Shown in pieces: positions 12,585 to 20,952 of a stretch of DNA of 20,952 nucleotides (within the stretch, counting starts at the first letter, position 1; the number at the start of each line of letters is the position of its first letter). The stretch comes from a virus. The translations under genes were made by a program, and so were the position numbers. The notes under the pieces are model-generated. The model was not told the origin of the DNA. It ran no database searches and saw only the letters and a program-made list of their open reading frames with translations. The stretch lies in IMG/VR virus record IMGVR_UViG_3300042868_002540, positions 1 through 20,952 of that record; one strand, 5' to 3'.

Positions 12585-13103
12585 ATGGGCATCGAAACTA
12601 TCATCGCGGCCGCAGCTCTGGGCACAAGTGTAGTTGGGACAGTTGGATCTGCTCGAGCGGCCAAGCAAGCAGGCGCTGCACAGCAGCAGCAATACAATGC
12701 GCAGGCGGCTCAATCTCAAATGCAGGGGCGCTCTCAGGCGATCGCCTATCGCCAGCAGGGGGCCGATGTTCTGCGCATCTTGAATGAGACGTTGGCTGCA
12801 ACGATTGCAATTGCCGGGGCGGGCAATGTCGATCCAACAAGTGGCTCAGCCCGTGTGCTGCAAGAGTATGCCCGGGCGGAAGCTGCATCAGAGTTTGGCA
12901 CGGCGCAGGAGAATGCCATCTTGGCTACCGCCGGGGCCACGGCTCAGGCCGGGATCTATCGTCAGGCCGGATCATCCGCCTATTCTGCAGGGATTATGCA
13001 GGGCAATTCAATCATGTTTACCGGGCTCGGCCGCGCTCTTAACTTGATGCCGACATTCAACCCGTTCCAAACACAGCCACAAGGGCCATCTGGCCGCATC
13101 TAA
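12585..13103 (+). CDS. Internal virion protein B-like (T7 gp14-like), 172 aa
   Basis: The ATG at 12585 is one base after the previous stop, with GGGGG just upstream. The product begins with a Gly/Ala-rich hydrophobic helix (residues 2-24: I-E-T-I-I-A-A-A-A-L-G-T-S-V-V-G-T-V-G). A long Gln/Ala-rich helix containing Q-Q-Q-Q-Y-N-A-Q-A-A-Q follows, then G-N-V-D-P-T-S-G-S-A-R and a second helical part. This N-terminal hydrophobic helix plus Gln-rich coil and V-x-x-x-S-G-S pattern is typical of gp14-like core proteins. These are ejected on infection and, in T7, help form the channel in the outer membrane. The place between nozzle and large internal proteins agrees. Confidence 0.75.
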   Translation: MGIETIIAAAALGTSVVGTVGSARAAKQAGAAQQQQYNAQAAQSQMQGRSQAIAYRQQGADVLRILNETLAATIAIAGAGNVDPTSGSARVLQEYARAEAASEFGTAQENAILATAGATAQAGIYRQAGSSAYSAGIMQGNSIMFTGLGRALNLMPTFNPFQTQPQGPSGRI

Positions 13104-13120: not shown

Positions 13121-15757
13121 ATGGCTATGCTTCCGCGCTACGAACGTCTTGGAGTGAAGGCCGCACAGCCAGCACAATTGGACTTTGCAAACTTCAGAGA
13201 GCAATCGCAGGCGGCGCAAACCCTAAGCCAAAGCCTTGGCCGTATGTCGGATTTTGCCTTTGGCGTGGCGGAGAAAAAGTTTGAGCAAGTTGCAAAGCAA
13301 ACAGTTTCCAACCTCGGGGCAACTGAAACGCTGGCCCGGATCCAGAAATCTGGCGGTCCGACGAGCAGTTTCGACATGGTGGCATTCCAAACTGCTAACC
13401 GCATTGCATCGGCCGAGATCCAAATGGAATCGGATAAGCAGATCAGCAGCCTTCTCGATACAGCTCAGAAGACCGGGATGTCGATCGCGGATGTTTCGTC
13501 GGGCTTGGCCGATATCACCGATGGTTATGCCGCCACGCTTTCAACGCTAGATCCGGAAGCCGCCGGGCTGCTGCGCGTTCGCATCGGAGAGGCGTCAGGG
13601 CAGGCCATACAGCGCTATGGATCCTATGTTGAGTCTCAGGCCAAGGCCGCTCGATCTGCCCGCATAGAGGCGGCTGGTGATCTCTATGCGGCCAACATGA
13701 TGCAGACGGCGCTGATCCCCGGCATCACGCCGGAAACGCTTTACACCATGTCGCAGAACCGCATGAACCTTTTGATCGATGCGGGCGTTAGCCCCGACAA
13801 AGCGGCCACATGGGCGGCATCGGCTTTGAGAGATGCTGTGACGGAACACTCGGCCTTTTCCGCCATGACCATGCCTCTTGCGGATCTCAAAGCGAGGGCA
13901 ATGACGCCACCGGACAAACCGCTCCCCGGGATGGATTACACCGACACGCTTTCGCTTTGGAGCAAGTCCAACACGATCTACAACACCCGGACGGAATCGC
14001 TCCGGGTTGATGCAAGCACGTTATCCGATCAGCTCCAAGCAGAGGCCAAGGTTCTTGGCTCTGGCGGGACACCAGATCCCACACGCATTGCCGCGCTCCA
14101 AGAAAAAGCTCAAGCTCTTGCAGAGTTTGACCCCACCTTGGCGGGCAAGGTCGCAAACCTTCAGGCCGACATAACTTTTGTCTCGGGCGTTCGTGGCATG
14201 AATGTCGATGAGCTAAACAACGAAGTCACGCGCCTGAGCGCAGGCGTTCCCGGCGTTGGCGGGCCCGGGCTTGATACTACCGACGAAACTGCCATGCTTA
14301 GCTTTGCAACGCAGACCAGAGACGCAGCGCAAAAGGCGATCGATATCGCTAAGGCTGATGCGCTTAGATTGAGTGAAAGAGCAACAAATCTGATTGGCGG
14401 GGCAAGAGACGCAATTGATCGCGCAGAGAAAGAAACAGCGGCTTTAATCGTCAATGACATCAACACGGCGATCGATGTTCTAGGTCAGCAGCTCGATCAG
14501 ACAAATCCAAACCCGGCAGTTGTCCAACTTGCAATTACTGAAATCACGGCGCAGATCGCCAAGGTTCCAGAGAGCCAGATGACACCTGAGCTTTTGGCAA
14601 AAGTGACAGAGATCAAGCAGATCTCCAAAGACTTTGCTGATTGGCGCGGAATGACATCGCCCGAGCAAGATGCGTTCATTCAAAAACTGGCGCAGGATAT
14701 CCCCGCGCAAACCCCGCCCGGCATGACCACAATGGAAGCTCTTGCGATGAATGGTCGCCGGGCAAAGCTTTTGATGGGATTGCAGGCATCGCAGTCTGAC
14801 GCAATCGCAAAGGGTGATGCGCTATTGTTTGCCCAGACGCAGCGGATCCAACTTGTAGACGCGCAAGGAAATGCGCACGTTGTCGGGCAACCATTGGACT
14901 TCTCAAGCCCGGAAGCCGTGGCGCAATCGTTTGAGCGCAGGCTCGATGATGTGACAAAACTTGAAACTCGTTTTGGCGCGTCCGGCCAGAACATTTTTCT
15001 CCCACAGGAAAAGGCACAATTCACGGCAGCTCTTGAGTCCGGCACTGTCGGACAGCAACTTGTTATGCTCGACGCTATTGTTCGCGGCGGCGGGCCGACT
15101 GCCGAAAAGATTTTGGCGGAAGTTGGTGCTGAGAAGCCAATCTATGCCCATGTTGGCGGTCTTGTTGCTGATGGGAATATGGATACGGCGCAAGCTGTTC
15201 TGCGCGGCCTAAAGCTTGAAAAGCCGCCCGCACTTGGCGGAAACGACCCAAAGAACACAGCAGCGCAATACCTTGGCGGCGCATTGTATTCCCTGCCAAA
15301 GTTCTATCAATCCGTAACCGATGCGGCAGATGCAATGTATGCGGACTATGCCTCTCAGAACGTGGCAGCGGGGGAAGCATTTGACCCCGACATATATCAG
15401 ACGTTCCTAGATAAAGCGCTCGGAACGATGGAGGTGTCCACAGAGTTTGATGCTCCCGCGCTTGTTCCCCGGGGCGTAACACCCGCATTTATCGATCTTC
15501 TGAAGGATCCGGTTGACTATCCAGACTATGGCGAAAACTTTCTCGGCGGGTTTGTCTCCAACAAATCTGACCTGATCGACTTTCCAATCGATGCCTTGCC
15601 GGATCTGGAATGGTATCCGTTCAACGTGGGCTTGGTAAACGGCAAGAGTGCATGGGTTTTGCGGCATTCCGTCGGCGGAAGTTTTGTCGATTGGGCAGAC
15701 ACCAATGGAACGCGCATTCTGCTTGACCTAAACAAGATGACCGGGGGATCCCAATGA
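13121..15757 (+). CDS. Large internal virion protein (gp15-like position), 878 aa
   Basis: The protein begins MAMLPRYERLGVKAAQPAQ and continues F-R-E-Q-S-Q-A-A-Q-T-L-S-Q-S-L, a start style I associate with gp15-like ejection proteins. Nearly the whole length is predicted helical and Ala/Gln/Asp-rich with long coiled segments (about residues 15-130, 290-350 and 400-510). The last ~60 residues are aromatic- and Pro-rich and more globular (W-Y-P-F-N-V-G-L and S-A-W-V-L-R-H-S-V-G-G). No signal peptide, membrane span or lytic-transglycosylase motif is visible. Position and size match T7 gp15 (747 aa), part of the internal core and the periplasmic ejection tunnel. The stop overlaps the next start. 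The general role is fairly safe; exact homology is not shown. Confidence 0.7.
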   Translation: MAMLPRYERLGVKAAQPAQLDFANFREQSQAAQTLSQSLGRMSDFAFGVAEKKFEQVAKQTVSNLGATETLARIQKSGGPTSSFDMVAFQTANRIASAEIQMESDKQISSLLDTAQKTGMSIADVSSGLADITDGYAATLSTLDPEAAGLLRVRIGEASGQAIQRYGSYVESQAKAARSARIEAAGDLYAANMMQTALIPGITPETLYTMSQNRMNLLIDAGVSPDKAATWAASALRDAVTEHSAFSAMTMPLADLKARAMTPPDKPLPGMDYTDTLSLWSKSNTIYNTRTESLRVDASTLSDQLQAEAKVLGSGGTPDPTRIAALQEKAQALAEFDPTLAGKVANLQADITFVSGVRGMNVDELNNEVTRLSAGVPGVGGPGLDTTDETAMLSFATQTRDAAQKAIDIAKADALRLSERATNLIGGARDAIDRAEKETAALIVNDINTAIDVLGQQLDQTNPNPAVVQLAITEITAQIAKVPESQMTPELLAKVTEIKQISKDFADWRGMTSPEQDAFIQKLAQDIPAQTPPGMTTMEALAMNGRRAKLLMGLQASQSDAIAKGDALLFAQTQRIQLVDAQGNAHVVGQPLDFSSPEAVAQSFERRLDDVTKLETRFGASGQNIFLPQEKAQFTAALESGTVGQQLVMLDAIVRGGGPTAEKILAEVGAEKPIYAHVGGLVADGNMDTAQAVLRGLKLEKPPALGGNDPKNTAAQYLGGALYSLPKFYQSVTDAADAMYADYASQNVAAGEAFDPDIYQTFLDKALGTMEVSTEFDAPALVPRGVTPAFIDLLKDPVDYPDYGENFLGGFVSNKSDLIDFPIDALPDLEWYPFNVGLVNGKSAWVLRHSVGGSFVDWADTNGTRILLDLNKMTGGSQ

Positions 15758-18700
15758 TCTTCGATCAGTTCGATCCAACATCTGTCCCGACAACTTCCGT
15801 TAGAAGTGCCCCGGTCGGAACGGCATCAGAAAACTTCTTCGCCGCAATGAAGAGGTATGACTATGTTGACTCATCGATCGCATCAAGACTGGTTCTGCGA
15901 GACATCTGGGATCCCATTGTTGCGGAGGTAAACGAGGCAACCGGGTCAAACTTTGTGTCCCCCCTTTATGCTGGCGAGGAGTTTTCTGGCCTTAGCGGAG
16001 ATTATCAAGGGCAAGCCTTGTCGTTTTTCGATTTTGTCAAAAAAGCTGAAAGCGAAAAGCCCGGAAGCATATCTCCGAAAATCATGGAGCTGATGAGCCT
16101 CGAGGCAATGGACGCTGCTGTAATCAGCGAAGCTCAACGCGCAGTTTCAGAATATGATGCCGTCTCAATAAATAGCGAAGGCTTCATAAATGGGGCTGCA
16201 AGCTTTCTTGGCAGTCTTGCGGCCGGGTCCAAGGATCCATTTAACGTCGCTTTGATGCTTGGGACTATGGGCGTTGGCACTGGCATAAACGGGGCCAAAA
16301 CACTGGCAGGCATTGCGCTGCGAGAGGCGCTGATAAACGGCGGCGGCGAAGCTCTTAAGCAGCCGCTTGTCGCTTCGTGGTATAAAGAAATCGGCTTAAA
16401 TTACACGGCCGATAACTTTATCTCAAACGTCGGCGGCGCAGCCGTTATCGGCGGGGCCCTGCCAATTGCGGGAGCTGCGGTTAAAGCTGGCGCGGGGGCT
16501 GTGTCTCGCGGGATTGATATTCAGTCCGGGGTAACGCGGCCGACTCGAGCGCTGATTGATTTTCTCGATGCGGCTGAGCCTGAGCTGAACCGGACGCTTT
16601 CTCCAACCCAAATGCTTGCCGGGGTTGAAACGCTCAAGTCTGGCGGGATCAAAATAAGCCGCGAATCTCAAGCAGCCGTTACCGCCGCGCAAGATCTTCT
16701 CGACCTCGAGGCCAGCAATCCAATTTCCGGCAATCCGGTCGGAACGATTGTCGATCATGCCAGCACAATGGCAAGCGCTCAGCACAGCCTATTCAATGGT
16801 GAAGTGCCAAAGATTAAAGCCGTGCCGATCGAGATGGTAAAGCCCGAGGCAATTTTGCAACAGGCCGACAACCTTGATGGGTTTGTGTTCCGGTTCAACC
16901 CGAATGAAATTGGCGTCGATGCCAAGACGTTCCAATTCAAGATGGGCGGCGATGCTTTCGGTGTGTCCGAGCGCCTGCGCGGCGTTAAGGTTTGGGATCC
17001 AATCTTGGGCGGCGAGATCCTTGTCTATGAATATGCCGATGGCCGGATGTTTGTGGCAGACGGCCACCAGCGCCTTGGTCTGGCAAAGCGGATCATGTCC
17101 GAGGATCCAGCTCAGAATGTTGTGATCTATGGGCGCAAGCTGCGCGAAGCCGATGGCGTCACGCCTGAGCAGGCTATGGTCGTTGCCGCAATCAAGAACA
17201 TCGCAGAGGGCAGCGGATCCGCGATCGATGCCGCAAAGGTAGCGCGTATCGACCCGGTGGGCTTTTCTTCGCTGATTGGCAAGACGCTTCCTCCTTCGTC
17301 CGTCTTGGTCCGCCAAGCGAACGACATGATCAACCTGACCGACAATGCCTTTGGCGCGATCATCAACGAGGTGATCCCGGCAAACTATGGCGCGATCATC
17401 GGCCGCGTTCTGGGCGACAGGAAGGATCTGCAAGACGCAGCCGTCAAGATCTTGGCAAAGTCTGAGCCCGCCAATGTGTTTCAGGCCGAGGCAATCGTTC
17501 GCCAAGTGCGAGAAGCAGATGCCGAGCAAGTGCAGCAATTCTCCTTGTTCGGGGAAGAGACTGTCACGGAAAGCCTGTTTGTCGAGCGGGCTAAGATCCT
17601 CGATCAAGCCTACCGCCAGCTCAAGCAGGACAAGGCGACATTCGCCAACCTAACGCGAAACGCAGACCGCATCGAGGCAGAAGGCGGGAACGTCCTCGAT
17701 CGTCAGCTCAACGAGCAGAAAGCAACCCAAGATGCGCAAACCATCGCCCTCCTCCAAACCCTTGCCAACCGCAAAGGGCCCGTCTCTGATGCCCTCTCAG
17801 CCGCAGCCAGAGCCTTCCGCGACACCGGAAGTTATGGGCGTCCAACCCGAGACTTCCTCGAATCAGTCCGCAATGCAATTGCAACAGGCGATCTCGACCG
17901 GATATCTTCTAGCGACATTGGGCGCACTCTCGATGGTCCGTCGCCGGGCAGCGCAGATACAGTCGGCAAAGAACCAGTCCTTGATGGATTCGAAGAACCC
18001 AACGGCGTAGCGGCCGAGCAGCAGATCGACCAGCTAACGCAAGATATGTTCCCCGAGCCAGTAGCAATGGCCGAGGCTGCGGCTACCGGGACAATCGAAG
18101 AGCTGAAAAGCTTGATCGACGCAGGCGCAGATTTCAAGCAGATTGATCAACATCCTGTTGTCTTGCAGGCAATCAAGGACATGGAGTCTCGTCCGCAAAC
18201 TGTTAATCTTGATGGATATGGCAGCGAGGATTGGCACAACACTCGCGCTTATACCATTGATAAAAAACGCATTGTTGGAACGGAAGATGCTTTTGCCGCG
18301 TGGGAAATGCAAGCGGATCGCTTGGCTTGGGTTAAGAAGGGATTGCAGCCTGAGCCTGTTGCTCTGGATCGTCAGGCAACTATCATCCTTGGCCCGCCCG
18401 CTGCTGGGAAAAGCACAATCGCCGAGGATTTTGCCATATTTAACAAGGCGGCAATCATTGATAGCGATGAGATAAAGGCATCCATTCCGGAGTTTGACAA
18501 CGGAATCGGAGCTGCTGCGGTGCATGAGGAAAGCTCAAGCCTTGCCAAAGAACTTATGGATGCAATGCTAAAGAGTGGCAGAAATGTCGTGATCCCAAAA
18601 GTTGGTGACAAAGCCTCTTCCATTCTGAAGCAGATCCAACTACTTAAAGATAACGGCTACACTGTCTTTTTGATAGATATGTCCGTAACCCCTCAAAATG

Positions 18701-19215
18701 CTAAGCTCAGGATGTATGGGCGCTTTGTGTCGAATGGACGGCTTATCCCGCCTGCCTACGTCGATGCTGTTGGCAACCTGCCATCAGGGGTTTATCGCGA
18801 GCTTAAACAACAAGGAGCAGCAGATGGCTTTGCGCAAATCGACAACAATGGAAAGTTTGGGGCCGCAAGGCCCATCACCGACAAATCCGGGCAAGACTTC
18901 CTCTCGGGATCTCCTCTCGATATGGACAAGAGCGGAGGAGATATCGGTGGAGCCGCTAACGGAATCGCAAAAGAACCGAGTCAGGCGGTTTCTGGAGAAG
19001 TATCACCCAGAGGTGAAGCTCCCGTAACCAGTCAAGTCTCTGAGATGCAGTCGGCCATTATGGATGAGCTTCAGCCTGACGATATGATATCGGTCGGGCT
19101 GATGCAGGATGCCAATGGCAACATTGTCTCGCAAACGATGACTATGGCAGAAATGAAGACTATGCTGGATGCTGAAGACGAGTTCATCAAACAATTGGGG
19201 ATCTGTGGGATATGA
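15754..19215 (+). CDS. Polyvalent virion protein with ParB-like and zeta-toxin-like domains, 1153 aa
   Basis: ATG 15754 overlaps the previous stop. Residues ~165-255 are Gly/Ala-rich and hydrophobic (A-A-S-F-L-G-S-L-A-A-G, G-G-A-A-V-I-G-G-A-L), perhaps membrane-active. Residues ~355-500 form a ParB/Srx-like domain: V-P-I-E-M-V-K-P-E-A-I at 357-367 and D-G-H-Q-R at 436-440, then A-I-D-A-A-K-V-A-R. Residues ~600-740 are helical linker. Residues ~874-1010 form a zeta-toxin-type kinase domain: Walker A G-P-P-A-A-G-K-S-T (880-888), D-S-D-E (903-906), H-E-E-S-S (924-928), and an R-M-Y-G-R segment (986-990). Zeta enzymes phosphorylate UDP-N-acetylglucosamine or related targets. Domain mixtures of this type are known as polyvalent proteins, thought to be injected with phage or plasmid DNA. 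T7 gp16's transglycosylase is absent here. Enzymatic activity is inferred. Confidence 0.8.
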   Translation: MIFDQFDPTSVPTTSVRSAPVGTASENFFAAMKRYDYVDSSIASRLVLRDIWDPIVAEVNEATGSNFVSPLYAGEEFSGLSGDYQGQALSFFDFVKKAESEKPGSISPKIMELMSLEAMDAAVISEAQRAVSEYDAVSINSEGFINGAASFLGSLAAGSKDPFNVALMLGTMGVGTGINGAKTLAGIALREALINGGGEALKQPLVASWYKEIGLNYTADNFISNVGGAAVIGGALPIAGAAVKAGAGAVSRGIDIQSGVTRPTRALIDFLDAAEPELNRTLSPTQMLAGVETLKSGGIKISRESQAAVTAAQDLLDLEASNPISGNPVGTIVDHASTMASAQHSLFNGEVPKIKAVPIEMVKPEAILQQADNLDGFVFRFNPNEIGVDAKTFQFKMGGDAFGVSERLRGVKVWDPILGGEILVYEYADGRMFVADGHQRLGLAKRIMSEDPAQNVVIYGRKLREADGVTPEQAMVVAAIKNIAEGSGSAIDAAKVARIDPVGFSSLIGKTLPPSSVLVRQANDMINLTDNAFGAIINEVIPANYGAIIGRVLGDRKDLQDAAVKILAKSEPANVFQAEAIVRQVREADAEQVQQFSLFGEETVTESLFVERAKILDQAYRQLKQDKATFANLTRNADRIEAEGGNVLDRQLNEQKATQDAQTIALLQTLANRKGPVSDALSAAARAFRDTGSYGRPTRDFLESVRNAIATGDLDRISSSDIGRTLDGPSPGSADTVGKEPVLDGFEEPNGVAAEQQIDQLTQDMFPEPVAMAEAAATGTIEELKSLIDAGADFKQIDQHPVVLQAIKDMESRPQTVNLDGYGSEDWHNTRAYTIDKKRIVGTEDAFAAWEMQADRLAWVKKGLQPEPVALDRQATIILGPPAAGKSTIAEDFAIFNKAAIIDSDEIKASIPEFDNGIGAAAVHEESSSLAKELMDAMLKSGRNVVIPKVGDKASSILKQIQLLKDNGYTVFLIDMSVTPQNAKLRMYGRFVSNGRLIPPAYVDAVGNLPSGVYRELKQQGAADGFAQIDNNGKFGAARPITDKSGQDFLSGSPLDMDKSGGDIGGAANGIAKEPSQAVSGEVSPRGEAPVTSQVSEMQSAIMDELQPDDMISVGLMQDANGNIVSQTMTMAEMKTMLDAEDEFIKQLGICGI

Positions 19216-20952
19216 GTTTCAAGGCTTGCATCGAGGGCGCTGTCGGTAAGACCATCACCAAAGAGCAGGCCGATGAGGCGATCGGGCTCTTCGATGAGCT
19301 TGAGGTCCAATACAACAAGCAGATGGGGCCGGGACCGGCTCAGAGCAAAGCTGCGATCGATGCCGCAAATGCGATGAAGATTGCCGCTATCCAGCGCAAG
19401 CGCCGCGTTCTGTTGCAGGCCCAATCCTTCAAATCGATCCAGAAGGACATGGCAACCTATCGCGGCGGCGATGTTAAGCACATGGGATCTGCCGCAGTTG
19501 CCTTGCTCGAGCAAGACACCCTGAGCCGATATCCAAGCGTTGCTCAGCTTCACAATGTGATCCAGCGCCGGGCGACATCGATGATGGATCAGGTCTTGGC
19601 AACTTTTCGGCGCGACATTATTGGGCGGACCCGCAACAAGGCTGCAATGAAAAATCTGATTCGCGAGGCGTTCGGGGAAAACACCGGGGACGCAGCGGCA
19701 AAAGAGATGGCTACGGCTTGGGGCAAGGCATCGGACTATCTTGCGTCAAGATACAATGCAGCAGGCGGTGCGATATCAAAACGCCTTGATTGGGCATTGC
19801 CACAAAGCCATGTAGCCGAAAAGGTCAAGGCCGTATCCTACGATGAATGGCGCTCCTACATCCTTCAGCGCCTTAACACCACCAAAATGATCGACCAGCG
19901 CACCGACCTTCCTTTTACGCCTGAGCGGCTCGAGCTGGCGTTTAAAGACTCATATGATGCAATCAGCACAAACGGAGTTAGCAAGCTTGTTCCGTCAGGC
20001 CAAAAGGGCGGTCGATCAATTGCAACCCGGCATCAAGATCACCGCTTCTTTGTCTTCAAGAACGCCGATGCTTGGATGGAATACCAAGAACGCTTCGGCA
20101 ACCCTGAGCCGTTTGATGTGATGCTTGGGCATATCGATATCATGTCCAGAGAGATTGCGCTGATGGAACGGCTTGGGCCAAACCCAACCGCAACGCTTAA
20201 CTTTATCGGCCAGACATTGGAGAAGGCGGGCGCTCCAAACGCCGTTTCGGCATCAAAGGCAATGAGCGATATCTATGGGATGATCACCGGATCAAACAAC
20301 TCTCCCATCAACTCGAAGATGGCCCTGACAATGGCGGGCGTCCGGCAGGGCTTGCAGGCGGCGCAGCTCGGATCCGCAGCTCTGGCGGCTTTGACGGATC
20401 TCAACTTTCAGCGCATGACCCGGGCGTTTAACGGCCTGCCGCAGATGAACACGATCAACGACACAGTGAAAATGCTCGTTGCCTCTGAGGACAAGGGCCG
20501 CTTGGCATTGCGCCTTGGCCTAATCGCAGAAGGCTGGTCCTCAATGGCGTCCGGCCAGATGCGCTTTGTTGGCGATATGTCTGGGCCAGAGGTGATGCGC
20601 CGGGTCAGCGACTTCGTGATGCGGGCATCCTTGCTCTCACCTTGGACGCAAGCCGGGCGATGGGCGTTTGGCATGGAGTTTCTTGGAACGCTGGCCGACA
20701 ACACGGGCAAGTCCTTTGACGGCCTCGATCCCAATCTCCGCTCGGCCCTGACAAAGTATGGCATTGGCGCAGACCGCTGGGAGATCCTGCGCAAGACGCC
20801 TCTTTACGATTATCAGGGTGCAAAGTTCTTGCGGGCCGACGATGTTGCAGCTCGCACCGACATCGATCCCCGGCTGGCAAGCGACATTGCAGACAAGCTT
20901 CTGATGATGATCGACACTGAAACCAATTACGCCATTCCGTCAACGTCATTGC
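19212..20952 (+). CDS. Large virion/polyvalent-type protein, N-terminal 580 residues; 3' end outside window
   Basis: ATG 19212 overlaps the previous TGA (ATGA), and the frame stays open for 580 codons to the window edge with no stop. The visible part begins MSFKACIEGAVGKTITKEQ. It is helical (residues 5-160, basic and Ala-rich). A more globular block contains F-F-V-F-K-N-A-D-A-W-M-E-Y, F-D-V-M-L-G-H-I and I-A-L-M-E-R-L-G-P-N-P. Later comes a membrane-like or amphipathic stretch, Q-A-A-Q-L-G-S-A-A-L-A-A-L. The final visible segment D-T-E-T-N-Y-A-I-P-S recalls conserved blocks seen in very large phage ejection/polyvalent proteins, but I cannot name a family. From position it is the gp16-equivalent end of the ejection set, coupled to the ParB/zeta protein. 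Confidence 0.72.
   Translation, partial: MSFKACIEGAVGKTITKEQADEAIGLFDELEVQYNKQMGPGPAQSKAAIDAANAMKIAAIQRKRRVLLQAQSFKSIQKDMATYRGGDVKHMGSAAVALLEQDTLSRYPSVAQLHNVIQRRATSMMDQVLATFRRDIIGRTRNKAAMKNLIREAFGENTGDAAAKEMATAWGKASDYLASRYNAAGGAISKRLDWALPQSHVAEKVKAVSYDEWRSYILQRLNTTKMIDQRTDLPFTPERLELAFKDSYDAISTNGVSKLVPSGQKGGRSIATRHQDHRFFVFKNADAWMEYQERFGNPEPFDVMLGHIDIMSREIALMERLGPNPTATLNFIGQTLEKAGAPNAVSASKAMSDIYGMITGSNNSPINSKMALTMAGVRQGLQAAQLGSAALAALTDLNFQRMTRAFNGLPQMNTINDTVKMLVASEDKGRLALRLGLIAEGWSSMASGQMRFVGDMSGPEVMRRVSDFVMRASLLSPWTQAGRWAFGMEFLGTLADNTGKSFDGLDPNLRSALTKYGIGADRWEILRKTPLYDYQGAKFLRADDVAARTDIDPRLASDIADKLLMMIDTETNYAIPSTSL

Follow-up and report, generated by a model that had tools for sequence, protein, structure and literature searches.

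What is a protein that combines a ParB-like domain with a zeta-toxin-like kinase doing among the ejection genes of a short-tailed phage? The question is raised by IMG/VR virus record IMGVR_UViG_3300042868_002540, whose 20,952 bases (the window) carry late genes in the order known from short-tailed phages, this one probably marine, and include a gene at 15754-19215 that encodes a protein of 1153 amino acids (aa). A preliminary description of this DNA had proposed that the protein belongs to a virion-delivered counter-defence or host-takeover system. It missed that the kinase occupies an internal slot, and comparison with relatives reveals that the content of this slot changes as a unit between phages that are otherwise closely similar.

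Slot content is exchanged as a unit between close relatives

Three other IMG/VR loci, L002, L003 and L004, share the core and the tail of the 1153-aa protein with the window and carry unrelated sequence between them. In blastn comparisons, homology to L002 ends at position 18062 and resumes at 19060, the borders in L003 and L004 are the same within 15 nucleotides (nt), and over the three loci together homology stops at 18053-18062 and returns at 19045-19061. The DNA common to the window and these loci around the slot extends for kilobases on each side and is mostly 84-92% identical.

A scan with the core alignment (A1), taken to the best 80 of 541 confirmed loci, allowed the slot to be classified in 78 proteins, the window included: 34 carry a zeta-type kinase, 32 a module that we call RSH1, 6 a module called RSH2 and 6 nothing, counts that do not stand for population frequencies. 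Proteins with an empty slot are complete and retain the tail. When the zeta cassette was the sole query of a scan, one locus came up. In a quick IQ-TREE phylogeny of the neighboring gene (about 820 aa, 69 rows), slot state changes at least 18 times with four states, or 14 times with RSH1 and RSH2 merged, and shuffled labels require 24-36 changes (mean 30.4) in place of the 18, so that slot content partly follows descent yet switches often. Some switches are recent: L086 carries zeta and L090 RSH1 at an adjacent-gene tree distance of about 0.005, and further cases are L024 and L026, L052 and L061, and L039, whose slot is empty, and L040. Beside the slot lie runs of 35-323 nt that are shared exactly and could serve as homology arms. 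Slot content is exchanged as a whole unit between close relatives, and our searches of the open-access literature gave no account of a podophage ejection protein whose slot alternates between zeta and alarmone-synthetase modules, and none pairing a zeta toxin with an internal virion or ejection protein.

The core, the kinase and the modules that replace it

The near-invariant core that precedes the slot is 98.6-98.8% identical in aa (94-97% in DNA) among the window, L002, L003 and L004, whereas the N-terminal third of the window protein is only 59-79% identical to those of the three loci; the contrast points to a core that is either strongly constrained or subject to gene flow. Its ParB part is seen only through a structure model, as a PDB profile search with this part returned nothing and the window protein matched no ParB-type Pfam family (one of 40 members gave a weak RepB match, expect value (E) 0.013). 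The part does match phrog_10691 (E 1e-62). In Foldseek searches of the PDB, the AlphaFold model of aa 355-700, which has a predicted local distance difference test score (pLDDT) of ~80-90 across most of aa 375-585, matched Noc/ParB (7nfu, E 3e-5) and cytidine diphosphate-bound ParB (7bnk, 2e-4) with probability 1.0, over 210-230 columns that span the N-domain and the helical part together. TM-scores of the top hits are modest (0.34-0.44, target-normalised), and so the ParB fold is supported but a detailed function is not. Where the preliminary description spoke of a ParB/Srx-like domain, the ParB half of the label holds and the sulfiredoxin half comes down to a weak match (E about 2). As modeled, this part looks like a ParB/Noc-type module that would bind DNA and nucleoside triphosphates (NTPs), and it gives no sign of being a nuclease. 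A short motif, QFSLFG, sits in the low-confidence linker after the ParB fold and resembles the bacterial sliding-clamp-binding motif, QL[SD]LF.

In the window, the slot holds a P-loop kinase of zeta fold. Pfam Zeta_toxin matches aa 875-1031 (E 5e-15; 55.9 bits, cut-off 22.3), a profile of 23 zeta cassettes finds zeta toxin 1gvn (8e-14), PezT (1e-8) and bacterial Pnkp1 (5e-8) in the PDB, and the AlphaFold model of aa 766-1061 (pLDDT 89) best matches the folds of zeta toxin (1gvn, E 8e-9; 3q8x) and PezT, followed by the zeta-fold effector AvrRxo1 and polynucleotide kinases (E about 2e-5). The P-loop, acidic pair and downstream arginines that had been read from the letters could all be located, and the two domains hold up as genuine, neither showing obvious degeneration. 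The P-loop and acidic motif are intact in 34/34 zeta-type proteins, and HEESS, PKVG and the arginine motif in 33/34; that the catalytic motifs are kept at ~40% identity among the kinases argues for selection on catalysis.

Zeta toxins contact UDP-N-acetylglucosamine (UDP-GlcNAc) through Asp67, Thr118, Arg120, Thr128 and Glu100, and PezT is non-toxic when its equivalent of Thr118 is changed to Val (Mutschler et al., PMC3062530). In a sequence alignment anchored on the ungapped GxNxVI strand, the window kinase keeps Asp67 and has Val in place of Thr118 and Asp in place of Arg120, both UDP-GlcNAc-binding residues, and these replacements make UDP-GlcNAc an unlikely target. Membership among the UDP-GlcNAc kinases was rejected on the same residues. 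Of the earlier suggestion that the kinase acts on UDP-sugars or nucleotides, the first part is thereby weakened, and a nucleotide-type substrate other than UDP-GlcNAc is more likely. The enzyme is zeta-like in fold and probably also in phosphotransfer. As first described, no epsilon/PezA antidote gene adjoins the kinase gene, where overlaps of 4 nt leave no room for one.

The modules that replace the kinase in relatives are of another kind. A profile of RSH1, with the divergent RSH2 members included, matches Tas1, a (p)ppApp synthetase of the type VI secretion system (6ox6, E 2e-18), and the exported alarmone synthetase SaSAS (8vx3, 8e-4), and the synthetase motifs D..R, GY(F/V)D(R/K)K and E(I/V)(Q/I)(I/V) are present in 32/32 RSH1 proteins. 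RSH1 is thus predicted to be a Tas1-like module of the (p)ppApp/(p)ppGpp-synthetase fold. RSH2 aligns with RSH1 in hhalign (95.6%, E 1e-8) and has no match in the PDB, and its assignment, made by profile comparison alone, is less certain. Some slots are longer and have a second ParB-like segment ('DGNST') before RSH1 (L004:11311-12729, L025, L054, L055, L068, L078), and in other loci RSH1 is preceded by an extra domain that has no convincing Pfam match (L090:8174-9580, L095:3893-5299, L036:8228-9535).

The ejection gene set and its relatives

The open frame at 15754 is the third of four consecutive plus-strand genes of ejection type (starting at 12585, 13121, 15754 and 19212; Table 1), the last three of which overlap by 4 nt at each junction, so that it overlaps both of its neighbors. 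It follows the gp14- and gp15-like genes, whose products match gp27 and gp26, respectively, of Methylophilales phage MEP301. This phage is the nearest by portal (60%) and has no recognizable homolog of the 1153-aa protein. The gp15-like protein matches no Pfam or PHROG family, and its gene is mosaic too, as DNA homology to L003 ends at ~14423 and resumes at 15560 with a weak patch between. The gene from 19212 has matches in 110 phage records, including phiV10 p20 and a 'virion structural protein' of SI2.

Table 1. Positions of genes, domains and motifs in the window
Feature	Position	Strand	Basis or remark
Terminase	starts 3598
Portal	starts 5860		Pfam Head-tail_con 1e-97
Scaffold-position gene	starts 7657
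Capsid	starts 8576
Tail tube proteins	start 9754 and 10373
gp14-like small ejection protein, 172 aa	12585..13103	+	phrog_418 internal virion protein, E 1e-7; MEP301 gp27 homolog, E 1e-14
gp15-like large ejection protein, 878 aa	13121..15757	+	position; N-terminus vs MEP301 gp26, E 2e-9
Polyvalent ejection protein, 1153 aa	15754..19215	+	from N- to C-terminus: delivery part, ParB core, slot with the zeta kinase as effector, tail
N-terminal part, aa 1-345, ejection-protein-like	15754..16788	+	phrog_342 and K225 matches
Glycine-rich hydrophobic stretch, aa ~222-250	16417..16503	+	Kyte-Doolittle scan
Near-invariant core, aa 350-765, ParB/Noc fold at ~375-585	16801..18048	+	identity to relatives; AlphaFold and Foldseek
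DGHQR, aa 436-440, ParB box II position (box II-like)	17059..17073	+	invariant alignment columns
QFSLFG linear motif, aa 595-600	17536..17553	+	[QE]xx[LM]FG in 82/85 family proteins
Effector slot, exchangeable; DNA present in the window and not in L002, L003 or L004	18063..19059	+	blastn breakpoints
Zeta-fold P-loop kinase, aa ~866-1060	18349..18933	+	Pfam, PDB profile, AlphaFold, Foldseek
Walker A GPPAAGKS, aa 880-887	18391..18414	+
IDSDEIK, aa 902-908	18457..18477	+	second Asp aligns with catalytic Asp67 of zeta toxin; invariant
PKVG, aa 948-951, where UDP-GlcNAc kinases have EGT	18595..18606	+	33/34 zeta-type proteins
Arginine motifs RMYGRF (986-991) and NGRLIPP (994-1000)	18709..18753	+
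Conserved C-terminal tail, aa 1103-1153, near-terminal Cys	19060..19212	+	78-92% aa identity to L002-L004; also present in complete family members
Ejection-type protein after the 1153-aa gene	19212..20952, runs off contig end	+	phiV10 p20 homolog, E 2e-55; epsilon15 gp17 position

The N-terminal part may point in the same direction as the gene order. The T7 gp16-type family phrog_342 was matched by 10 of 32 homologous N-termini (best 3e-8), and a profile of this part finds protein 18 of Vibrio phage K225 (E 9e-17), the gene of which directly precedes the phiV10 p20 homolog of K225; phiV10 p19 gave no significant match to the N-terminus. The glycine-rich hydrophobic region noted previously is indeed present (aa ~222-248), with a best 19-residue Kyte-Doolittle mean of 1.53. 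At the other end, nearly all tails finish in RLxxCxx (window 19192-19212), whose conserved Cys stands 3-4 residues before the end, and phiV10 p19 and K225 protein 18 likewise carry a Cys near their ends. T7, P22 and epsilon15 eject proteins encoded by gene sets of this type, and T7 gp16 is assigned to the cytoplasm with its C-terminal portion (PMC8954989). From synteny and homology we infer, on good grounds, that the 1153-aa protein is ejected from the virion, in keeping with its original description as the third large protein of the ejection gene set.

No cultured relative of the whole protein was found with a match covering 80% of it. The ParB core occurs in 31 bacterial genome contigs, mostly alphaproteobacterial and many with the N-terminus too, where it is followed by RSH1 in 5/31 and by zeta in 1/31. 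Among named phages it occurs in Ruegeria phage 45A6, Dunaliella virus SI2 and the Prochlorococcus P-SCSP1 phages; neither a zeta nor an RSH module could be detected in the proteins of SI2, P-SCSP1u and the fetched part of 45A6. P-SCSP1u has, in its ejection gene region, a 2563-aa protein (L005:6624-14315) that is annotated as hypothetical and holds a distant copy of the core (E 8e-32). We found no evidence on this ParB-bearing protein in the P-SCSP1u cryo-electron microscopy paper; in PMC9860041, internal virion proteins are merely inferred, from size and position.

Proposed role, alternatives and known systems

Our results lead us to favor, as rather probable, the view that the 1153-aa protein is the third ejection protein of a phage of T7/epsilon15 type and serves as a scaffold for delivery, with a single slot in which effectors are exchanged and a proposed role at entry. 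The protein would be packaged in the head and would leave the virion before or with the DNA, as the ejection proteins of T7 and epsilon15 do, and its core and slot domain would arrive in the cytoplasm of the host. Once inside, the ParB-like core may handle the incoming DNA in an NTP-dependent manner, and the slot enzyme, an adenosine triphosphate-dependent (pyro)phosphotransferase, would, shortly after entry, modify a nucleotide of the host or a metabolite resembling one, with the effect that host defense is blunted or host metabolism redirected before any phage gene is expressed. We propose that the slot turns over because different hosts favor different slot enzymes, and that the phage can do without an antidote, as the infected cell is destined for takeover. 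The idea of counter-defense or host takeover is strengthened by the alternation of the kinase with Tas1-like alarmone-synthetase modules.

Several points weigh against the scaffold proposal. Relatives with an empty slot show that the slot enzyme is dispensable, the link between the N-terminus and T7 gp16 is weak, no data on proteomics, ejection or activity turned up for any family member, and the exchange is read from metagenome contigs, where shared runs may have made single contigs chimeric. That the exchange as such is an assembly artefact, fed by the exact runs of up to 323 nt beside the slot, is highly improbable: the same cassette-phage pairings recur in separate metagenomes (zeta in L017, L018 and L020-L022; RSH1 in L056, L057, L059, L062 and L065), which argues against chimeras as a general cause, frames stay open, and exchange is repeated in independent clades. 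We also think it improbable that the protein is not ejected and works in the cell that produces the phage, late in assembly or during packaging, although ParB folds bind DNA in general: by its gene order and homology it belongs with the ejection proteins.

Other alternatives concern what the slot enzyme does. Phosphorylation of UDP-GlcNAc, as by zeta toxin and PezT, would weaken the cell wall for DNA entry, a role that passages of Iyer et al. (PMC5512222) suggest for zeta domains in polyvalent proteins and that the zeta fold, P-loop and catalytic Asp67 would allow; it seems unlikely here, as the UDP-phosphate binders Thr118 and Arg120 are Val and Asp, PKVG stands in 33/34, and a role at the cell wall is not what alternation with an alarmone synthetase would suggest. 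The matches to Pnkp1 and the polynucleotide kinase folds would fit an enzyme working at the ends of RNA or DNA, such as one that restores 5'-phosphates on tRNAs cut by host anticodon-nuclease defenses, but zeta toxins are clearly the closer match and no RNA ligase was recognized in the window, and we regard such a repair function as doubtful. The slot enzymes might also be interference toxins against rival phages or the host's competitors, as proposed for the MuF polymorphic toxins of temperate phages, in which the RelA-like module type is also found (PMC5576092, PMC12226406); the lack of an adjacent immunity gene speaks against this, and we give it little weight.

A bolder extension of the scaffold proposal is, for now, more speculative than probable. 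The podophage ejectosome may double as a polymorphic effector-delivery machine, in which a constant, ParB-bearing protein carries an interchangeable enzyme that (pyro)phosphorylates small host nucleotides, thereby disarming nucleotide-based defense or resetting metabolism before phage genes are read. These enzymes would be Tas1-like (p)ppApp synthetases or zeta-like kinases, the substrate possibly being adenine-nucleotide-like or, since the zeta-fold AvrRxo1 uses it, similar to nicotinamide adenine dinucleotide (NAD), which AvrRxo1 is reported to phosphorylate (PMC5491322). Ejection proteins are usually viewed as components of a tunnel. Should they also bring along an exchangeable enzyme that evolves fast, these widespread podophages would attack the nucleotide chemistry of the cell at entry. 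Near-identical phages with zeta, synthetase or empty slots are natural controls for the purpose of a virion-delivered effector, and the same series could reveal which host trait selects which slot enzyme.

The closest parallels are the polyvalent proteins, which the passages of Iyer et al. 2017 (PMC5512222) present as large multidomain proteins encoded beside virion genes, with ParB-like and zeta-type kinase domains, RelA/SpoT domains in other members and a predicted delivery with the DNA. The 1153-aa protein likewise unites at least two domains of unlike biochemical activity beside virion genes. In those passages, however, zeta domains belong to conjugative elements and MuF fusions, not to a podophage ejection-protein slot, and no exchangeable internal slot alternating with Tas1-like modules is described there; the window also has no match to the ParB-type Pfam model of the DdrB-type ParB of polyvalent proteins. 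Halovirus HCTV-5 gp114, annotated as 'zeta toxin and ParB nuclease domain protein', lies near head genes as well, but has the reverse order (zeta at aa 149-340 first), a ParB part that does not match the family profile significantly (E 0.03) and a home in a different virus group. Together with the polyvalent proteins as given in those passages, gp114 indicates that the pairing of ParB and zeta in one phage protein is not itself new.

The MuF toxins likewise join a structural protein to a variable toxin domain, (p)ppApp synthetases included (PMC5576092, PMC12226406). The window, in contrast, has no MuF domain (no Pfam hit) and holds a zeta kinase, a word absent from the main text of both papers. 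Tas1 is homologous to the replacement module of the relatives, which the window itself does not carry and which would be delivered by a phage, if at all. In gene order and homologous neighbors, the protein holds the position of T7 gp16, phiV10 p19 and epsilon15 gp16, of which T7 gp16 has a transglycosylase and phiV10 p19 no detectable ParB or kinase. Multidomain and toxin-bearing phage proteins are already known; what looks new here is a slot that is internal rather than C-terminal as in MuF toxins, with a conserved tail behind it, in a protein of a podophage ejection gene set.

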